64,000 nt of DNA from Flavobacteriales bacterium (GTDB lineage: Bacteria; Bacteroidota; Bacteroidia; Flavobacteriales_E; Vicingaceae). Under the pieces are notes generated by a model. That model ran no database searches. It had not been told where the DNA came from and saw nothing but the letters and a program-made list of their open reading frames with translations. The stretch lies in contig JADYZM010000004.1 of assembly GCA_020853105.1 (NCBI GenBank), forward strand, positions 1 through 64,000. Reading direction: 5' to 3'. Shown piece by piece: positions 30,909 through 38,823 of this stretch (positions are counted from its first letter, which is position 1; each line of letters begins with the position of its first letter). A program made the position numbers and the translations under genes.

Positions 30909-30960
30909 ATTAATTTAGTTTCGTTAGAGTTGTTAATTGTTGTTAAAGTGTGAATATAAA

Positions 30961-30992
30961 AGAAAAGGCTACAATATGTAGCCTTTTCTTTT
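30961..30992 (-). terminator. Terminator closing the 31.0-38.8 kb gene cluster
   Basis: A perfect 12-bp stem (AGAAAAGGCTAC with GTAGCCTTTTCT, loop AATAT) with T-rich flanks on both strands. It lies 17 bases past the stop of the last cluster gene (31009). Confidence 0.8.
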
Positions 30993-31008
30993 GATTTAAA
31001 AATTGAAT

Positions 31009-31641
31009 TTATTTGATTCTGTATCCTATTTTTAAGCCTAATCGTAAATCAACAGGTATTTTGTTGCCCAATACTGGTAAGTAATCATTTTTGTCCCAGT
31101 CTTTAGTTAAATTTTTTGTTTCGTCGTCAGCTTTGCTGTTGCTGATTGAAATAGAATTGTTTAATAATTTACCAACTCCAAATTCTGCTTCAACTATAAA
31201 ACCATTACCAGCAACCCACTTATATCCGGTTAATGCTCCTAATCCCATTGCTGATGATGTAACGTTGGTTTGTTCGATGACAATAATTGAGTTGGCATCA
31301 TAAGCAAAGAAATCATTTTTATTTGATGCAGAACTTCTGTATCTGGCAAAGGCTCCCAAATAAAATCCATCGGCTCCTTTTTCAGGGGTTAGAAAATACT
31401 TGAAAGTTGGAATAATATTAAATTCTGAATATTCTTTGCCACCGGCTTCAGTCATATTTTTTGAAGTGGTATTAACATTTATTCCAACAGCGATTTTATC
31501 GTTAAAACCATATTCTGCACCCAATTCATATTTAGAAAATACAAAATTTAGGACATTTAGGTTAACATCAAAGTGTTGAGAGAATGCTGTACTATTTATA
31601 AAGAATAGTAGGACTACGGTTGATAATAATTTAGTTTTCAT
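31009..31641 (-). CDS. Outer-membrane beta-barrel protein, last gene of the envelope cluster
   Basis: A 210-residue protein with a signal peptide (residues 1-21, ending FINSTAFSQ). Amphipathic strands with glycine and aromatic girdles follow (KYELGAEYGFNDKIAVGINV, GADGFYLGAFARYRSS, GFIVEAEFGVGKLL), and the terminal strand LRLGLKIGYRIK is typical for small barrels. The function is unknown. It is separated by 35 bases from the preceding cluster gene and followed by a terminator, so it is the 3' member of the predicted eight-gene unit, as the 309-residue barrel is the first. Confidence 0.75.
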   Translation of the reverse strand: MKTKLLSTVVLLFFINSTAFSQHFDVNLNVLNFVFSKYELGAEYGFNDKIAVGINVNTTSKNMTEAGGKEYSEFNIIPTFKYFLTPEKGADGFYLGAFARYRSSASNKNDFFAYDANSIIVIEQTNVTSSAMGLGALTGYKWVAGNGFIVEAEFGVGKLLNNSISISNSKADDETKNLTKDWDKNDYLPVLGNKIPVDLRLGLKIGYRIK

Positions 31642-31676
31642 ATAGTAAAAAAATTAGGTTATAAATTCAATTTTGA

Positions 31677-32639
31677 TCACCACCAACCTCTCACATTGTA
31701 TGTTATAGATTTTGGTTGACCATTACCATAAGCAACTCCAACATCACGATAAGCTTTTATCATTTCGCTTTTTTGCTCTTGGTCTTTCAATATGTATTTC
31801 CATTCACGTGCATCAATTTCTTTTACTCGAGCAGCAATTTTAGAGTTTAAAGCTTTTACTTCACCATAGCAAGATGATTGAGGTTCAATTGAAGATAAAA
31901 TTGCACCTGCTTGGTCTGCTGCATCCATGCTTTGGTTAGCGGCCCAAATATTGCTTGCTTCTGCTAATTTAAGCTTACAATCTCTGTCAATCATTTTTTG
32001 ATACATTGGACCAACAGCTTTAATTGCTTTGTCATAACATTCTGCACAGGCATCAGGAACACTTGTTAACTTGAATATTGCTTCCTCATATTTATTTTGA
32101 GTAGCTAAAGTATTAGCCTCTTTTATTATGAAATCACATTTTGAATTGTAATATTCAACTATTTTTTGTTTTCCTTTTTGAACAAATGCTGCGAGTTCTG
32201 GATTTTCCGGTTTGATATTATTTAAAGCTTGCATATATGCTTTAGTTTCGTTTTGACCAACACCTTTCACTTGTACAGAAGTACTTGCAAAAAGAGTTCC
32301 GTCAAATCCATCTCCAATGTATAAGTTAACATCAAGTGTATAGGCTTGCATTGGGGGTGCAGTTGCAGTTAAATCTTTAGTAGCAACAATAATGTTCGCA
32401 GTTAAGACAAATCTGGAATTGAAACTACTTGAAGCAACACCGTTTTTGTTGATAATTTGAGTTAATTTATTAGCTAGAGATTGACGAGCAGTAGTTGGCA
32501 TTCCTTCAATCTGATCCGGAACCCATGCAGTAACTGCTACACGGCCAAGGTCGTCTTTTTTATCTTGTGCGATAGCTGAAGTTATAGAAAACAAAGCTAA
32601 AGAAGAAATAAAAGCTATTTTTAAAATTGATTTTTTCAT
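31677..32639 (-). CDS. Exported protein of an uncharacterised family, envelope cluster
   Basis: A 320-residue protein with a signal peptide (AFISSLALFSITSAIAQ). Residues about 30-150 look like a CsgG/LPP20-like alpha-beta domain (ARQSLANKLTQIINKNGVAS, FVLTANIIVATKDLT, YTLDVNLYIGDGFDGTLFAS), that is, a strand that handles a variable substrate plus a conserved KGVGQNETKAYMQAL helix. Residues 165-300 are helical with paired cysteines (DACAEC, KCD, DRDCK, SSCYG) and TPR-like spacing (LATQNKYEEAIFKL). The likely site is the periplasm or inner face of the outer membrane. Homologues of unknown function probably exist widely in Bacteroidota; I do not know a name. Confidence 0.72.
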   Translation of the reverse strand: MKKSILKIAFISSLALFSITSAIAQDKKDDLGRVAVTAWVPDQIEGMPTTARQSLANKLTQIINKNGVASSSFNSRFVLTANIIVATKDLTATAPPMQAYTLDVNLYIGDGFDGTLFASTSVQVKGVGQNETKAYMQALNNIKPENPELAAFVQKGKQKIVEYYNSKCDFIIKEANTLATQNKYEEAIFKLTSVPDACAECYDKAIKAVGPMYQKMIDRDCKLKLAEASNIWAANQSMDAADQAGAILSSIEPQSSCYGEVKALNSKIAARVKEIDAREWKYILKDQEQKSEMIKAYRDVGVAYGNGQPKSITYNVRGWW

Positions 32640-32666
32640 GTCTATTTCGTTTAATAAGTTAATTTG

Positions 32667-33614
32667 TTATTTCTCACCAAGAACTATAACAGCTTGTCCT
32701 AATCCTTTCATCATTAGTTTATTAGTAATGCTATATGGTGGTTCTTTTAAGAATTTTTGTAAGTTTTTGGCAAATCCTCTAGCGTCAATTGCTTTTCCTG
32801 AATCATCAAACATTGGTATTCTAACTTGTTCGAACAACATCATGTTCTCAGTAGCATCTGTAGTACTAAATCTACCTTTAACAGTATTTGCAGCCATCCA
32901 GTCTTCAATAATAGCACTTAATTCTTTACCATCAAATTCTGATTCTAAATCTTCTGACCATGAATCGAATTTTTTAATTCTAATGATAATTTCTCTTCCA
33001 TTTGCAAACATATCTTCAAAATGCAATTGTAACTTAGAATTGAAGTTATCGATATGAGTGGTTACTGCTTCTTGCAAAAGAACTGCAATTTCTGCAGAGA
33101 AAGAAGGAGCACCAGTTCCTTGAGCTCCAGCAATTTGTTTATCGGTATAAGAATCTAAACCTTGTAAATTAAAAGTTATAGATTTTTTTGGACCTGTAGT
33201 ATTTACTGTCCATGTTAATTGCATAATAATGTCAGCTTTTGCAACTCTTTTTAACGCATCAACAGGTGATTCACTAACGCCAGCACCAGATTTAGAGGTT
33301 AACATATTGTTTTCAGCAGCTTCTGCTTCTAAAGTTTTAATTGCAGATTCCATGTTTTTAAGCGGAAAACCTCTTTCAGACATCATATCATTTAAAGAAC
33401 TGATTACAAGATTTAAGTCGGAATTTTCTTGAAAAGCTCTTTTGTAATCTGGAATTTTAACTTTAGTTCCTTGATTGTCAAATTCTAAAAAGAATCCATT
33501 AGTAATACACCAGTTATCACTTGGTACAACCATAATTGTTGGTTTTTTTGCTTGACCAAAAGCTAAAGCAGATAGTAAAACAAACGATAATGTTATTGAA
33601 ATAATTTTTTTCAT
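32667..33614 (-). CDS. Exported protein, DUF6175-like, envelope cluster
   Basis: A 315-residue protein with a signal peptide (IISITLSFVLLSALAFGQ). The opening KKPTIMVVPSDNWCITNGF and the segment KADIIMQLTWTVNTTGPKKS followed by ITFNLQGLDSYTDKQIAGA resemble the substrate-facing part of CsgG/TolB-N-like envelope proteins and, from memory, families grouped as DUF6175. That name is a recollection, not a search result. A C-terminal alpha-beta part (FDSWSEDLESEFDGKELSAI) follows. It precedes the 320-residue protein by 27 bases, and the two share the pattern of a predicted alpha-beta domain near the N-terminus. Confidence 0.7.
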   Translation of the reverse strand: MKKIISITLSFVLLSALAFGQAKKPTIMVVPSDNWCITNGFFLEFDNQGTKVKIPDYKRAFQENSDLNLVISSLNDMMSERGFPLKNMESAIKTLEAEAAENNMLTSKSGAGVSESPVDALKRVAKADIIMQLTWTVNTTGPKKSITFNLQGLDSYTDKQIAGAQGTGAPSFSAEIAVLLQEAVTTHIDNFNSKLQLHFEDMFANGREIIIRIKKFDSWSEDLESEFDGKELSAIIEDWMAANTVKGRFSTTDATENMMLFEQVRIPMFDDSGKAIDARGFAKNLQKFLKEPPYSITNKLMMKGLGQAVIVLGEK

Positions 33615-33637
33615 TTTTTAAAATTTATTAGAGTTAA

Positions 33638-34147
33638 TTATTGAGTAATTATTTTATCTTGAATCATTCTTTCTTTAAGTTTAGCACGTTGAACACGAAC
33701 AACTACACCGTAGTTTTCTTGAGAACCAGCTTGAGAACGACCTTTTCTTACTTCACTATGCATATCTGAGCCATCTTCTGAAGTAATAAACTCTTTATAT
33801 GGACCGCCATCAGCAAAAAATGCGTTGAAATAGTCTTCAAACTTTTCGCGAGCATTTGGGTTAAACAAAACTGGTTTTGTGTTACATTCACTACTTCCTT
33901 TGGTTATACCTTTAAAAAGAACGTCTCTAACAGCGTTTTTCTTTGCTTGTTCAATAGCATCTTCACGGTTTCTACCTTTTCCATGAGAACGAACTGTTTG
34001 AGAACCATCACCTTCAACTCCTAAACATTCAGTTTCGTAATCGTAAAAACCTGCTGTTTTCTTTTGTTTTTTCTGAGCAGAAGAGTTTAACGTGAATCCT
34101 ACAAGAAATACAAGTAGAATTCCTACTGATTTTAAAATTGTTTTCAT
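33638..34147 (-). CDS. Small exported protein, tandem paralogue A, envelope cluster
   Basis: A 169-residue protein with a signal peptide (SVGILLVFLVGFTLNSSAQ). The mature part is clearly paralogous to the neighbouring 173-residue protein. Shared positions include YETECLGV/YEIECVGI, AIEQAKKNAVRDVLFKG/AITQAKKNAVHGLIFKG, FNAFFADGG/FDPFFAEGG and a later YGVVVRV/YKVGVVVSV strand. Two cysteines are conserved between the paralogues (EC near residue 40 and SEC/GC near 95) and could pair. The QAKKNAV helix recalls the repeated-Ala helix of LPP20/FlgT-like envelope proteins. No function is known to me. Confidence 0.72.
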   Translation of the reverse strand: MKTILKSVGILLVFLVGFTLNSSAQKKQKKTAGFYDYETECLGVEGDGSQTVRSHGKGRNREDAIEQAKKNAVRDVLFKGITKGSSECNTKPVLFNPNAREKFEDYFNAFFADGGPYKEFITSEDGSDMHSEVRKGRSQAGSQENYGVVVRVQRAKLKERMIQDKIITQ

Positions 34148-34166
34148 AGCTTAAATAGTTTAAATG

Positions 34167-34688
34167 TTAGAAACCAGAAGAAAGACCTTTAATTATACCA
34201 GCTTCTTCTAAATCTTTTCTTAATAAATCGGTCATTACAGATACTACAACACCAACTTTATACTCTTTTCCAACTTTCATAGGTTCTGGAGTTCCATCTC
34301 CTGATACAGAAACGAATTTCATGTATTTTCCACCTTCAGCAAAAAATGGGTCGAAAAAATCAGCTTTTTGTTGTTCTAAAGAAGGGTCGTTTGTTAATGG
34401 ACGTTGTGCAGAACAACCTTGTGCACCACCAGCGTAACCTTTAAAAATTAATCCGTGTACTGCATTTTTTTTAGCTTGCGTAATAGCTATTTTAGGGCTT
34501 TTTGAGTAAGACCATACTTTGATTAACTTTGTTCCAGGTTGTCCAATACCAACACATTCTATTTCGTATCTCCAACTTTCTGTAGCTTTATCTGCTTTTT
34601 TTTGTTGAGCAAAAGCTTGTGAACCAATTAGCAACATTCCAACTGTAATTAAGCTAATTTTTGAAATCATTTTTTGTATCATAATCAA
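34167..34688 (-). CDS. Small exported protein, tandem paralogue B, envelope cluster
   Basis: A 173-residue protein with a signal peptide ending SQAFAQQ. It aligns over its mature length with the downstream 169-residue protein (gap 19 bases), so the pair arose by tandem duplication. The cysteines in YEIECVGI and GAQGCSAQ line up with those of the paralogue. It differs in having SYSKSP where the other has GKGRNRED, and in the C-terminal EAGIIKGLSSGF tail. Two retained, diverged copies side by side suggest hetero-oligomer subunits, an inference only. Confidence 0.72.
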   Translation of the reverse strand: MIMIQKMISKISLITVGMLLIGSQAFAQQKKADKATESWRYEIECVGIGQPGTKLIKVWSYSKSPKIAITQAKKNAVHGLIFKGYAGGAQGCSAQRPLTNDPSLEQQKADFFDPFFAEGGKYMKFVSVSGDGTPEPMKVGKEYKVGVVVSVMTDLLRKDLEEAGIIKGLSSGF

Positions 34689-34714
34689 TTGTTTTTAGTT
34701 TGTATTTAAAATTA

Positions 34715-36079
34715 TTAATTTATTTGTCTAATTAACATACCAGCATAGTATCCTTTTCCACCTTTAAAGGTAGTATATTCAAAATCATTTTCAGGTTTCA
34801 TTGGATTTCCTTCTTCGTCTAAAGGTTCTTGTCCTTTACGGTAGCGATTGTCCATTATTTTATCTTTCTCAACAGTTATTACACCTTTTCTTTTGTAAAC
34901 TATTTTTCCATCAGCACCAACATTTTGTTCTAAAACTTCGTATTTGTCGCCTTTTTCTAAGCCTTCTTTCATTCCAATTTTTGCAGCAAGTGGGTCAGCA
35001 CTTACAAGTGGCGTTTTGGTTCTGAATTTTTCGAATTTACGTTGAAGTTTTGCGTAAACAGCATCAATTGATTTTAATGTTGCATTTTTAATAATGTTCA
35101 CTTCAGAATCTGCATTTTTACCCAATCCAGAAATTAATGCTGATGTTTTTTGATAACCAATTAAATTCATTTTAAATAAATTAGAGTTATCAAAAGCTTC
35201 TTTTTTTGCTGGGTCAACAGAATTGTCGTCCATCCAATAGTTTTGGTAAAAAACAGCCGAAGTAGAATCATTCCAATTCAATTCGTATAAATAAGCTGTT
35301 GTCCAAACAGAGTAACCATGTCGAGCTTTTTCGTAGGCAGCTTCTGCAGCTTTTATTGCAACCTCTTTTAAGGCAGCAACTTTAATTGCTTGAGCTGTTG
35401 CAATTGCTGTTGTTTTAGCAGCCAAAGCAGCAACTTCGTTACTAACAAATTTTGAATAACTTACCACAACAAAAGTATTTGGTAAAAGCTCTTCACCAGC
35501 ATCAGCCAATGCAGCATCTCCTCTACTTGAAGATGAAGCAATTTGTATGTCTTGAGCAGAAGCATCATACATACCCCTTTCTTGAATTAAATTCATATCA
35601 AACGCACCATTTTCTTTTCTGTTAAACCATTTTGCTACTATTTTATTAGCAACTTTAGCTTCTTCAAAGTATTTATTGATTGCAGGTATATAATCTTCTT
35701 CGGTTATTTTTTTTGAATTAGTATCGGCTAATACTAAATATTTTGAAACATTAAACGATTTTTCACCAATCGTATGATCGTTGTATTTATCAGGAAATTC
35801 GGCGTTTAAGAATGTGTTTAGGATGATGTCTTTTTTTGGAAGTTTATCATCTTCCATAATCATGGTATGAAGTGAACTTCTACGGTATTTAATTGCTGCT
35901 GTAGATTTGTCAGAAGCATCAATTTTTCCAGAATCTTTTTTTTCCTTCTCTTTTACTTCTTTTTCTTTAACTGGTTCTTCTGTTTGAGCAATTGATTGCT
36001 GAGAAGATAAAACTACTGAAAATGCAACTAATGTTAGATTAATTAGTGTTTTTGTTCTTTGAAATGTTTGTTTTTTCAT
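34715..36079 (-). CDS. Exported protein with RSSL and C-terminal beta modules, tandem paralogue, envelope cluster
   Basis: A 454-residue protein with a signal peptide ending QQSIAQ and a Lys/Glu-rich linker (KEKEVKEKEKKDSGK). The conserved core starts AAIKYRRSSLHTMIMEDD, then FPDKYNDHTIG, VAKWFNRKENGAFDMNLI and NTFVVVSYSKFVS. A helical Ala-rich segment follows, then YLYELNWNDSTSAVFYQNYW, and a C-terminal module with KLQRKFEKFRTKTPLVSADP and GDKYEVLEQNVGADGKIVYK. The 558-residue protein upstream has the same sequence of blocks. A 115-base gap with a -7-like element precedes it, the only large gap in the cluster. I do not recognise a named domain. Confidence 0.73.
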   Translation of the reverse strand: MKKQTFQRTKTLINLTLVAFSVVLSSQQSIAQTEEPVKEKEVKEKEKKDSGKIDASDKSTAAIKYRRSSLHTMIMEDDKLPKKDIILNTFLNAEFPDKYNDHTIGEKSFNVSKYLVLADTNSKKITEEDYIPAINKYFEEAKVANKIVAKWFNRKENGAFDMNLIQERGMYDASAQDIQIASSSSRGDAALADAGEELLPNTFVVVSYSKFVSNEVAALAAKTTAIATAQAIKVAALKEVAIKAAEAAYEKARHGYSVWTTAYLYELNWNDSTSAVFYQNYWMDDNSVDPAKKEAFDNSNLFKMNLIGYQKTSALISGLGKNADSEVNIIKNATLKSIDAVYAKLQRKFEKFRTKTPLVSADPLAAKIGMKEGLEKGDKYEVLEQNVGADGKIVYKRKGVITVEKDKIMDNRYRKGQEPLDEEGNPMKPENDFEYTTFKGGKGYYAGMLIRQIN

Positions 36080-36102
36080 ATAAAAATTTAGTTATTAGAA
36101 AC

Positions 36103-36110
36103 CAAAACTA
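36103..36110 (-). promoter_or_regulatory. Possible internal promoter of the envelope cluster
   Basis: The reverse strand reads TAGTTTTG, a consensus -7 element, 23 bases before the 454-residue gene in the cluster's only wide gap (115 bases). No clear -33 box is seen. Confidence 0.4.
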
Positions 36111-36194
36111 AGAAAAAAGAAAAAGGTAAACATTAATTGTTAATAATGTTTTTGTTAGGACAATTTTTATGCCAATAATAATTATAACTATTGA

Positions 36195-37871
36195 TTAATT
36201 AATTTGTTTAATTAACATACCTGGATAGAATTGACCACTAGCACCATTAAAATGTGTTGCGTCAATTGCTTGTGGAGGAACATTTCCTTTTAGTTCATCA
36301 GGTACATAGCTATTATCCCAAATCATTCCTTTTTTTACTGTAATTATACCTTTTCTTTTATAGGAAATTTTTCCGTCTAATCCAATAACCGATTCAAGTA
36401 CTTCAAACTTATCTCCAGGTTCTAATCCTTCTTTTAAACCTATTTTAGCAGTCAAAGGTTCAACTGAATGTAATGGAGTTTTTGTTCTAAATTCTTCAAA
36501 TTTTCGTTGAAGTTTTGCAATAGCTTGATCGGTTGCTTTAACTGTTGCCATTTTTATCAAATCCTCTTCGCTTTTATTAGTGAAAATAGAAGATTGAACA
36601 TCTGCCCAAGCATCTTGACTACCAATGTATTTTAATCTAAATAAGTTAGAAATATCAAACGCCTTTACTTTGTTTGGGTCTAGGTTTGTTTCGTCTGCCC
36701 AATAATTTTGATAAAAAACTGCAGCAACTGAATCGTTCCACTCTAAACGATATAAGTAGGAAGTAGTTTTAATAATATATCCTTTTCCTGCAACTGTTAC
36801 ACCAGCATCAGTTACAGCCGTTACGTTATTTATAGTAGATGAAAGTGCTCCAGCACCGGGAATAAAACTTAGACCTGTACGTAAACCAGCAGTAACTTTT
36901 TTAGTTGTTTGAGCAATTTCTTCTTTGCTCGTAAATTTAAAATCATTAACAATAACAAAGGTGTTTCCAATTAAATCTTCACCAGCATCAGCGAGGAGAG
37001 CGTCGCCTCGTTGAGAGGAAGCAGCTATTAATTTATCATAAGTAGATGCATCGTACTCACCACGAGATGCTATTAAATCCATATTAAATACACCATTATT
37101 TTTTCTGTTAAACCATTTTGCTACTAAATCCTTAGCAACAAAGTTATTGTTTAGGTAATTGCTTATTTCGTAAGAACGGTCTTTTACTGTGCCAACTCCT
37201 TCAATTAAATAAGGACCAATGTTGTGGTCGTTAAATTTTTCGGGAAGTGGAGCATTTCCAAAAGCATCTTTAATTACATTGGCATGTTGACGGGTTGGGT
37301 CGTTAACCATTAAAGTGTATAAAGAACTTCGGCGGTATTTTACACTTGCTGTTGAATTATCTGTTGCGTCTTTTACTTTTGCTGGGCCAGCAACAGCGTT
37401 AGTTGTTGAAGTGGTTGTAGTATTTGAACTAGGAAGCGAAATGGTTGTGCCAAATCCTTCTTTTTTTAATTGTTGATAAGCAAAATCTCTTTTGTTTGTT
37501 GCTGAAGCAATTGCTAGGTTATTTTGCGAAGCAACAATTGCATTAAGACCTTTTTTAGAATCAATATCTTTTTTAAGTTGAGCTGCAATAGTCCAATATT
37601 CTTTAGTTACAGCTTCTTTTTTTTCAGCTTCTAATTTGTTTATCGCAATAACGGTTTCAGGATTTTTTCTCCATTCTTCGGCATCAGGATTATAACTAGA
37701 TGAATTTCGTTTGTTTATTTCATCTTGAATAACTTTTGCCAAACGATACTGCTCGTTTGCTACAGCCTGATTTTTTTGAGTATTTAATTCTTCAAGTGTT
37801 AAACTAGATTGTGAATAAAGGCTAGAGTTAAAGATTATGATAGAAATAAGAAATATATATATAGTTTTCAT
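36195..37871 (-). CDS. Exported protein with UVR-like repeats and the RSSL/beta core, envelope cluster
   Basis: A 558-residue protein with a signal peptide (IFLISIIIFNSSLYSQ). Residues about 24-120 hold two or more UVR-like helical hairpins (TLEELNTQKNQAVANEQYRL and NKLEAEKKEAVTKEYWTIAA), a motif usually found in UvrB/UvrC and here on an exported protein. After a Thr-rich linker the core repeats that of the 454-residue paralogue: SVKYRRSSLYTLMVNDP, LPEKFNDHNIG, LVAKWFNRKNNGVFNMDL, RLEWNDSVAAVFYQNYW, KLQRKFEEFRTKTPLHSVEP and the closing GMLIKQIN. A hydrophobic Gly-rich stretch (LSFIPGAGALSSTINNV) sits mid-protein. Confidence 0.75.
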   Translation of the reverse strand: MKTIYIFLISIIIFNSSLYSQSSLTLEELNTQKNQAVANEQYRLAKVIQDEINKRNSSSYNPDAEEWRKNPETVIAINKLEAEKKEAVTKEYWTIAAQLKKDIDSKKGLNAIVASQNNLAIASATNKRDFAYQQLKKEGFGTTISLPSSNTTTTSTTNAVAGPAKVKDATDNSTASVKYRRSSLYTLMVNDPTRQHANVIKDAFGNAPLPEKFNDHNIGPYLIEGVGTVKDRSYEISNYLNNNFVAKDLVAKWFNRKNNGVFNMDLIASRGEYDASTYDKLIAASSQRGDALLADAGEDLIGNTFVIVNDFKFTSKEEIAQTTKKVTAGLRTGLSFIPGAGALSSTINNVTAVTDAGVTVAGKGYIIKTTSYLYRLEWNDSVAAVFYQNYWADETNLDPNKVKAFDISNLFRLKYIGSQDAWADVQSSIFTNKSEEDLIKMATVKATDQAIAKLQRKFEEFRTKTPLHSVEPLTAKIGLKEGLEPGDKFEVLESVIGLDGKISYKRKGIITVKKGMIWDNSYVPDELKGNVPPQAIDATHFNGASGQFYPGMLIKQIN

Positions 37872-37893
37872 TTTATGATTTTTTTATAATGAG

Positions 37894-38823
37894 TTATTTT
37901 TTAGCTTTTCTTTTTACTCTCGACCAAGCGAGACCAAATCTAAAACGTGGGGTGTATTCATTATTAAAATAAGTATTAAATTCTAAAAAAGCACCAATAC
38001 TTCTTTCTTTAGTAAAAAACAAATAGCTACCAAGTTTGTAATTTAAAGGCAAATAAAATTCTTCATCATCATTTAATCCGAAACCAAGTCCAAATGAAGT
38101 ATAAGGTAATAAAACTGCATCAAAATCAGCAAGAAATGCTATTTGAGCACCTGTGTTTATACTCAAATAATCGCCAACAATAAAATCAAAAGATGTTCCT
38201 CCAGCAATGTATTTGTTTGCCCACCAACGATGATTTGATGTTTGAATAGAAAAAAATGAATATTCTTCCATGTAGGATTCATCAACATATCTGTTTAAAT
38301 AATTATCATAATAACTTGATTGGTATTCGTCTTCAATTGTTCTAAAGCCTAATCCTACACTTCCAATAATTTTATCATTATATTCATATTCAGAAAGAGA
38401 TCTACTAGATGATTTTGTTTTAGGTTGTTTAGCACCAAGAAGTGCATTTTCGAAACCTGGAGGAAGTGGTTGATTAGAGATTGCAGTACCCGTTAATCCT
38501 AATACATTTGTTTGTTGTGTTAGAGGAGTTATATTTCTACCATTTTTTACATCATCAATTTTTTTATCGATAACAATTACTTCGTCGTACTTTTCTAAGA
38601 AAATGGCAATTTTCTTATCTTCTTCTAATTGTTTTATAGTGGCATTTTTTTCTTCCACTTGCTGAATTTCTTTTTTTAGTTGTTCAGCTTTTTGAAAATC
38701 GTTGTTTTCAGTTGCAATTTTTAATTCATTATTTAGTTCTTCTATTGTTTTAGTGGTTTGTCCAATTATAGAAATGGAACAAAATAATAGTATTACTAAG
38801 AATATTTTTTGTCTAATCATCAT
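37894..38823 (-). CDS. Outer-membrane barrel with N-terminal UVR-like helices, first gene of the envelope cluster
   Basis: A 309-residue protein with a signal peptide (IFLVILLFCSISIIGQ). Residues 23-92 carry UVR-like helical hairpins (TIEELNNELKIATENNDFQK, QLEEDKKIAIFLEKYDEVIV) like those of the next protein. A barrel domain follows (YNDKIIGSVGLGFRTIED, WWANKYIAGGTSFDFIVGD, YTSFGLGFGLND), ending FRFGLAWSRVKRKAKK. Shared helical motifs on the barrel and on its 22-base-distant neighbour suggest that the two bind the same partner or each other. An ATG one codon downstream (MIRQK) is an equal start. Confidence 0.74.
   Translation of the reverse strand: MMIRQKIFLVILLFCSISIIGQTTKTIEELNNELKIATENNDFQKAEQLKKEIQQVEEKNATIKQLEEDKKIAIFLEKYDEVIVIDKKIDDVKNGRNITPLTQQTNVLGLTGTAISNQPLPPGFENALLGAKQPKTKSSSRSLSEYEYNDKIIGSVGLGFRTIEDEYQSSYYDNYLNRYVDESYMEEYSFFSIQTSNHRWWANKYIAGGTSFDFIVGDYLSINTGAQIAFLADFDAVLLPYTSFGLGFGLNDDEEFYLPLNYKLGSYLFFTKERSIGAFLEFNTYFNNEYTPRFRFGLAWSRVKRKAKK

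Follow-up and report, generated by a model that had tools for sequence, protein, structure and literature searches.

We find in a member of the Flavobacteriales (Bacteroidota; Vicingaceae) a set of exported proteins whose core of four families, B/C, D/E, F and G, is conserved across much of the Bacteroidota and has so far gone undescribed. The genes, here called A to H, lie in a stretch of 64,000 nucleotides (positions 1 to 64,000 of the forward strand of contig JADYZM010000004.1, assembly GCA_020853105.1), hereafter the window, and comprise two modules, namely a two-gene unit A-B and an operon C-H. On the strength of the predicted folds of C and F we propose that their products might build, against the outer membrane, a non-flagellar periplasmic ring of the FlgT/CsgG type that acts as a conduit or scaffold, a reading to which we give about an even chance and in which ring formation, docking on a barrel and transport are all putative.

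All eight genes are on the minus strand, and their coordinates, strand and spacing agree with the preliminary description. The A-B module opens with A (37894-38823, 309 aa), an exported protein with a UVR-like helical hairpin and a probable small β-barrel, and continues with B (36195-37871, 558 aa), an exported member of the B/C family in which an N-terminal UVR motif precedes a predicted FlgT-like part. A gap of 115 bp (36080-36194) forms the junction with the second module, which consists of C (34715-36079, 454 aa), a predicted FlgT-like core subunit with an α/β domain and a C-terminal small β domain; D (34167-34688), a small exported core protein of 173 aa if read from the TTG at 34688 and of 171 aa if read from the ATG at 34682; E (33638-34147, 169 aa), an ancient paralogue of D that is optional and in relatives often a lipoprotein; F (32667-33614, 315 aa), a DUF6175 (PF19672) protein and core subunit predicted to resemble CsgG and the middle domain of FlgT; G (31677-32639, 320 aa), a core subunit with an α/β domain and a helical TPR-like region; and H (31009-31641, 210 aa), the last gene, which is lineage-specific and encodes a small outer-membrane barrel of the DUF3575 family. 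From A to H the intergenic distances are 22, 115, 26 (32 from the ATG of D), 19, 23, 27 and 35 bases. The C-H operon is closed by an intrinsic terminator (30940-31008, minus strand) with a 16-bp stem, a folding energy of -20.8 kcal/mol (z = -8.3) and a U-rich tail next to it, which is stronger than the 12-bp stem originally reported.

The promoter-like pattern TTG-18-TACCTTCG that had been placed ahead of A is indeed present (38870-38842), but occurs at chance frequency, with 2 matches in the window against 3.7 expected, and shows no enrichment ahead of the B/C genes of relatives (2 of 82); a promoter upstream of A was therefore dropped. The gap between B and C holds TTGGCATAAAAATTGT (36174-36160, minus strand, 95 bases upstream of C), a predicted site close to a sigma-54 -24/-12 promoter. 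It is conserved in the window's genus, including a genome (G396) that has no A-B at this place; with three genomes of a single genus this is weak evidence, and no similar site was found ahead of the B/C genes of other loci. Related sites of the form GGTAT-N-TTTGC were seen in a few other relatives upstream of a small helical gene described below.

Each of the eight proteins is headed by a signal-peptide-like hydrophobic segment, in keeping with the earlier view that all are exported, and a lipobox is absent from all eight window copies. Pfam searches supplied family names for F and H alone, plus a UVR motif at the N-terminus of B (E = 1.5e-6): F matches DUF6175 with E = 5e-127 and 423.6 bits (cut-off 23) over profile positions 1-293 of 293, and H matches DUF3575 with E = 4e-12. 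The preliminary description could name no pathway for any of the genes; one of them, F, does fall into a named family, while the set as such is undescribed. NCBIfam named none of the eight proteins, and no window protein matched the Pfam models of FlgT, CsgG or LPP20. Comparisons with PHROGs and PADLOC gave nothing relevant and no meaningful defence-family match for the core proteins, and a phage or anti-phage defence origin was dropped on these grounds.

We scanned the genomes of 84,980 species with F, which recovered 518 relatives; the best 80 of these 518 were kept with their flanks, profiles were built for each gene, and every open reading frame in the loci was labelled with them. The arrangement [B/C]-[D/E, one or two]-F-G is found again in loci of Flavobacterium, Aquimarina, Tenacibaculum, Mucilaginibacter, Pedobacter, Chitinophagaceae and Bacteroidales; among 86 non-redundant loci of Bacteroidota, chosen by similarity to F, 80 preserve it in full. 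G lies immediately downstream of F in all 86, and the core genes are usually separated by 10-30 bp, with median gaps of 20, 16, 17 and 14.5 bp over the 86 loci. Since the loci had been selected by F, we turned also to 395 evenly sampled Bacteroidota genomes. Of these, 19 have F and 19 have D/E, 18 having both; F is likewise present in each of the 9 that have G and in each of the 5 that have a full-length B/C. This co-occurrence indicates that the system, rare and patchy as it is, travels as a set. Adjacency across genomes, the yardstick that the preliminary description set for itself, is thus borne out for the core, and its genes are not scattered singly; what is conserved is four families rather than eight genes, the end barrels being accessory. 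Among the core proteins F is by far the most conserved, mostly with 64-71% identity to the window copy (alignment A4), which sets it far above C, D and G and might mean that it makes more contacts than they do or has to bind something. Cassettes of Bacteroidota type were also encountered in metagenome-assembled genomes titled Cellvibrionales and Chlorobiota (L099, L059), reflecting either mis-binning or transfer. Our literature searches found no paper naming DUF6175 and none linking LPP20, CsgG, FlgT and Bacteroidetes.

The division into two modules emerges from the placement of A and B in relatives. In four of these the A-B pair is at a different locus from C-H, and there C is preceded by a small helical exported gene. 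Further, in another genome of the window's genus (G396) the locus reads HEAT gene-C-D-E-F-G-H-peptidase without A-B, and so represents an empty site. Together these arrangements mark the 115 bp that separate B from C as a module boundary, and with H being lineage-specific they rule out the eight genes as a single conserved unit, as which they had first been presented. A is present in 6 of 41 related genomes and F in 8 of 41, every genome with A also having F, an overlap that counting would yield in 28 of 4,496,388 cases if the genomes were independent, which as relatives they are not. No F locus other than that of the window contains an A homologue. The UVR-like hairpin is common to A and B (pairwise E = 5e-7, computed with no composition correction). 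Under the proposal favoured here, with its even chance overall, A-B would be a second, separable pair of barrel and FlgT-like protein serving the C-H machine. In a close relative (G395; L134, 4581-5459) A is broken near its end by a putative insertion-sequence transposase gene.

The two duplicated pairs recognized at the outset stand, B pairing with C in one family and D with E in a second. In the tree of the former the nearest neighbours of B are copies from other lineages and not C, showing that B is no recent copy of C. The D/E copies form two clades, and each of the 46 two-copy loci is represented once in either clade, which makes this duplication old, and 40 of 43 single-copy loci retain the D-type; of the three exceptions two are cut at a contig end and one has D fused to B/C. 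Hence the D-type is retained and the E-type is optional. A lipobox is found in 20 of 49 E-type copies as against 8 of 86 D-type copies. The B/C-D fusion of one locus (L080) contains part of the signal segment of D, which may point to a deletion or an assembly fault, and was left unused. The suggestion that D and E are LPP20- or FlgP-like found no support: 50 members of the family gave no LPP20 match, and a profile made from the LPP20 loci reached a probability of only 11% in hhalign.

For C and F we used AlphaFold models (pLDDT 83.5 and 88.1, respectively) in Foldseek searches against 350,542 PDB chains. C retrieved only two entries at E <= 0.001, both FlgT (3w1e, 8z5n), with values of 6e-6 and 1e-5, and CsgG came next; the first match is chain 0 of an LPHT-ring entry and was taken as FlgT by its length and rank. 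The match to FlgT spans about 430 aligned columns with TM-scores of 0.19-0.23. F recovered FlgT, GNA1162 and CsgG at E-values of about 2-5e-4, and PelC at about 1e-2, the comparison with CsgG having an E-value of 3e-4, a probability of 1.0 and a TM-score of 0.26. Whole-chain TM-scores for both proteins are low (0.19-0.29), so that the models point to a kinship of domain folds: the predicted likeness of C and F is one of local fold and domain order, not of rigid superposition or same arrangement. Thus the CsgG/LPP20-like parts formerly assigned to the middle of the cluster are retained as predicted FlgT/CsgG-type folds of C and F, and LPP20 goes undetected in D/E. At the sequence level the FlgT domains of Pfam were found neither in B or C at E <= 1 nor in 46 members of the family at E <= 0.1, and profiles of B/C, D/E, F and G searched against PDB sequences gave chance matches only. 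TPR_19 was detected in 4 of 45 members of the G family (best E = 0.0015).

The barrels that were thought to flank the cluster fare unequally, H being well matched to DUF3575 and A weakly supported by a barrel-like C-terminus and by a homologue that matches OMP_b-brl with E = 0.06. In 13 loci, that of the window among them, H or a homologue directly follows G. In Flavobacterium loci an OMP_b-brl_2 barrel (1e-22 to 1e-28) is encoded 8-30 bp upstream of B/C, and in four loci (L081, L091, L108, L110) B/C itself has a C-terminal extension with a barrel-like end and weak Pfam support. In pairwise comparisons these barrels show no significant mutual similarity, L091-L110 excepted; the end barrels are accessory parts and, judged by their sequences, come from unrelated families. 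Such repeated recruitment of unrelated barrels beside the FlgT-like subunit, or fused to it, suggests that this subunit docks on an outer-membrane barrel.

An altered version of the unit is kept in the same order in genomes of another Bacteroidota class. Here a long B/C-like protein with an outer-membrane barrel, seen in L030, is followed by a D/E-F fusion of about 430 aa and then by a protein combining an LPP20 domain (Pfam, 7e-6 to 6e-10) with a G domain in the operon slot of G. In profile-profile comparisons (hhalign) D/E matches the N-terminal part of the fusion at 96.8%, F its C-terminal part at 98.2%, B/C the deep barrel proteins at 85.8%, and the N-terminal domain of G the C-terminal part of the deep LPP20 proteins at 88.8%. 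An apparent similarity between the D/E and F profiles proved to be an artefact of fused proteins in the D/E set, and was gone once these were removed. In two divergent loci (L025, L027) a protein that Pfam assigns to CsgG/LpoB holds the B/C slot ahead of D/E-F-G; for both the LpoB model scores as well or better (2.9e-9 against 1.9e-8 for CsgG in L027). Among further neighbours, an exported helical protein of about 150 aa with no Pfam match is encoded directly upstream of C in a dozen or so relatives (L135-L138, L141, L050, L057, L063, L069, L076, L078, L084, L088, L098) and is a candidate substrate or subunit; a search of the window's own genome did not recover it. It is unrelated by profile to the product of the 207-223 aa gene that precedes the CsgG-like gene of L025 and L027. 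In a Bacteroidales locus (L068) G is followed by a gene for a lipoprotein of 194 aa that looked LPP20-like, a reading which Pfam did not bear out. Several relatives (L113-L124) also encode long lipoprotein-like LPP20 proteins of about 460 aa, in two genomes close to a second, LPP20-like protein of 196 aa, and these may belong to a further envelope set, as yet without a name.

In the ring that we propose, C, as a FlgT-like protein, and F, resembling CsgG and the FlgT middle domain, would be the ring-forming subunits. D and the optional, often lipid-anchored E would be partners that bind F directly, as the fusion of D/E to F in the deep relatives suggests, and G would contribute a further α/β domain along with a TPR-like arm. 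The ring might be seated in the outer membrane by a small barrel, exchanged between lineages and here represented by H, with A-B as a second, separable pair of the same machine. The likeliest role of such an assembly would be the passage or assembly of something across the outer membrane, comparable to that of CsgG, PelC-PelB or the FlgT/FlgP/FlgO H-ring. Going further, the set could be a Bacteroidota machine for export or assembly across the outer membrane that has not been described before and is neither flagellar nor of the curli type, with a ring of FlgT-like, DUF6175 and partner proteins and interchangeable barrels; this more specific version we hold tentatively, as somewhat less likely than not. 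FlgT is known as a part of the flagellum and CsgG as a part of the curli apparatus, and Bacteroidota are known above all for the type IX system. If the proposal is true, flagellar H-rings and curli pores would be particular instances of a ring architecture that serves as a general outer-membrane kit, a first testable role would fall to DUF6175 and to three families without a name, and Bacteroidota would gain a further candidate envelope machine beside the type IX system, whose SprA is present in the window's genome.

Several other explanations compete with this proposal. F and its CsgG-like counterparts might regulate a peptidoglycan synthase in the manner of LpoB, the remaining proteins providing a scaffold, making the set a lipoprotein-type outer-membrane regulator of an envelope enzyme, an idea that draws on the LpoB matches of the upstream genes in L027 and L025 and on the presence of GNA1162 among the best structural matches of F. 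However, LpoB consists of one protein, against the four families and a barrel that travel jointly here, the spread over 19 of 395 genomes is unlike that of an essential regulator, and no cell-wall enzyme recurs beside the cassette in the loci compared, where neighbours are mostly unannotated; we consider this explanation unlikely. It is improbable, too, that the genes encode a true curli-type secretion apparatus, diverged past recognition and exporting an amyloid or a helical protein. CsgG is the second-ranking structural match group, and the helical protein before C might be the substrate, but this protein was not recovered from the window's genome, the same genome has no match to the CsgG family (PF03783) even at E <= 0.1 (E. 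coli controls being positive), none of 89 F homologues has a lipobox, and curlin-like repeats were not noticed among the predicted proteins.

A relic or repurposed set of H-ring genes from a flagellated donor would account for FlgT as the top structural match of C and F alike and for the LPP20 domain in the operon of deep relatives. Against it FlgI, sought in a genome listed as 100% complete, is absent, leaving the host with no flagellum marker; FlgT is unmatched at the sequence level; and the set's own order and fusions are conserved from class to class, indicating that it is old in Bacteroidota and no recent import, all of which renders this origin most improbable. Shared transcription is no proof of interaction, and the insertion-sequence-like gene interrupting A in a close relative implies that accessory parts are dispensable, as would be expected of envelope genes merely co-expressed with no joint complex. 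Yet the D/E-F and G-LPP20 fusions, the near-perfect co-occurrence of D/E with F and an order held between classes make this distinctly improbable.

The LPP20 domain (PF02169), that of the FlgP family, occurs as a true copy in deep relatives, joined there to a G-like domain and encoded at the place of G in the operon; in the window, by contrast, Pfam matches none of D, E and G to LPP20, and profile comparison gives no match for D/E either. F is a full-length member of DUF6175, and its conserved neighbours lie outside the description of that family as far as databases show. In Vibrio motors FlgT, FlgO and FlgP make up the H-ring, which is associated with the outer membrane and aids the flagellum in crossing it (PMC7990780), and the set is like this ring in the predicted local folds that C shares with FlgT, in export, and in having small partner subunits comparable to FlgO and FlgP. 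It differs in a host without FlgI, in the lack of a FlgT Pfam match, in the low whole-chain TM-score, and in barrel partners and a DUF6175 protein that have no known H-ring counterpart. To the CsgG channel it is akin in a predicted α/β fold, matched by F and only weakly by C, and in the Pfam CsgG protein in the first slot of L025 and L027, whereas the window proteins are not lipoproteins, do not match the CsgG family, and have a core of four other families. In the Pel system twelve copies of PelC make a ring that sits on the TPR stalk of the barrel protein PelB (PMC12141448), and the present operon similarly unites a protein with a predicted PelC-like α/β fold (F), a TPR-like part (in G) and an outer-membrane barrel; unlike the Pel system it has small barrels rather than the 16-stranded PelB, F is unlipidated, and no polysaccharide synthase was noticed adjoining. 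None of the eight proteins combines TPRs with a 16-strand barrel as PelB does, the TPR-like part being in G and the barrels in A and H. Lipidation separates the sets as well, C, D, E and F of the window being non-lipoproteins, whereas FlgP and FlgO (PMC7990780) and PelC (PMC12141448) are described as lipoproteins and CsgG is so named in PDB entries. Thus, while membership tests place it in none of the three, the module appears to resemble in its working the flagellar H-ring, the curli and the Pel systems alike.
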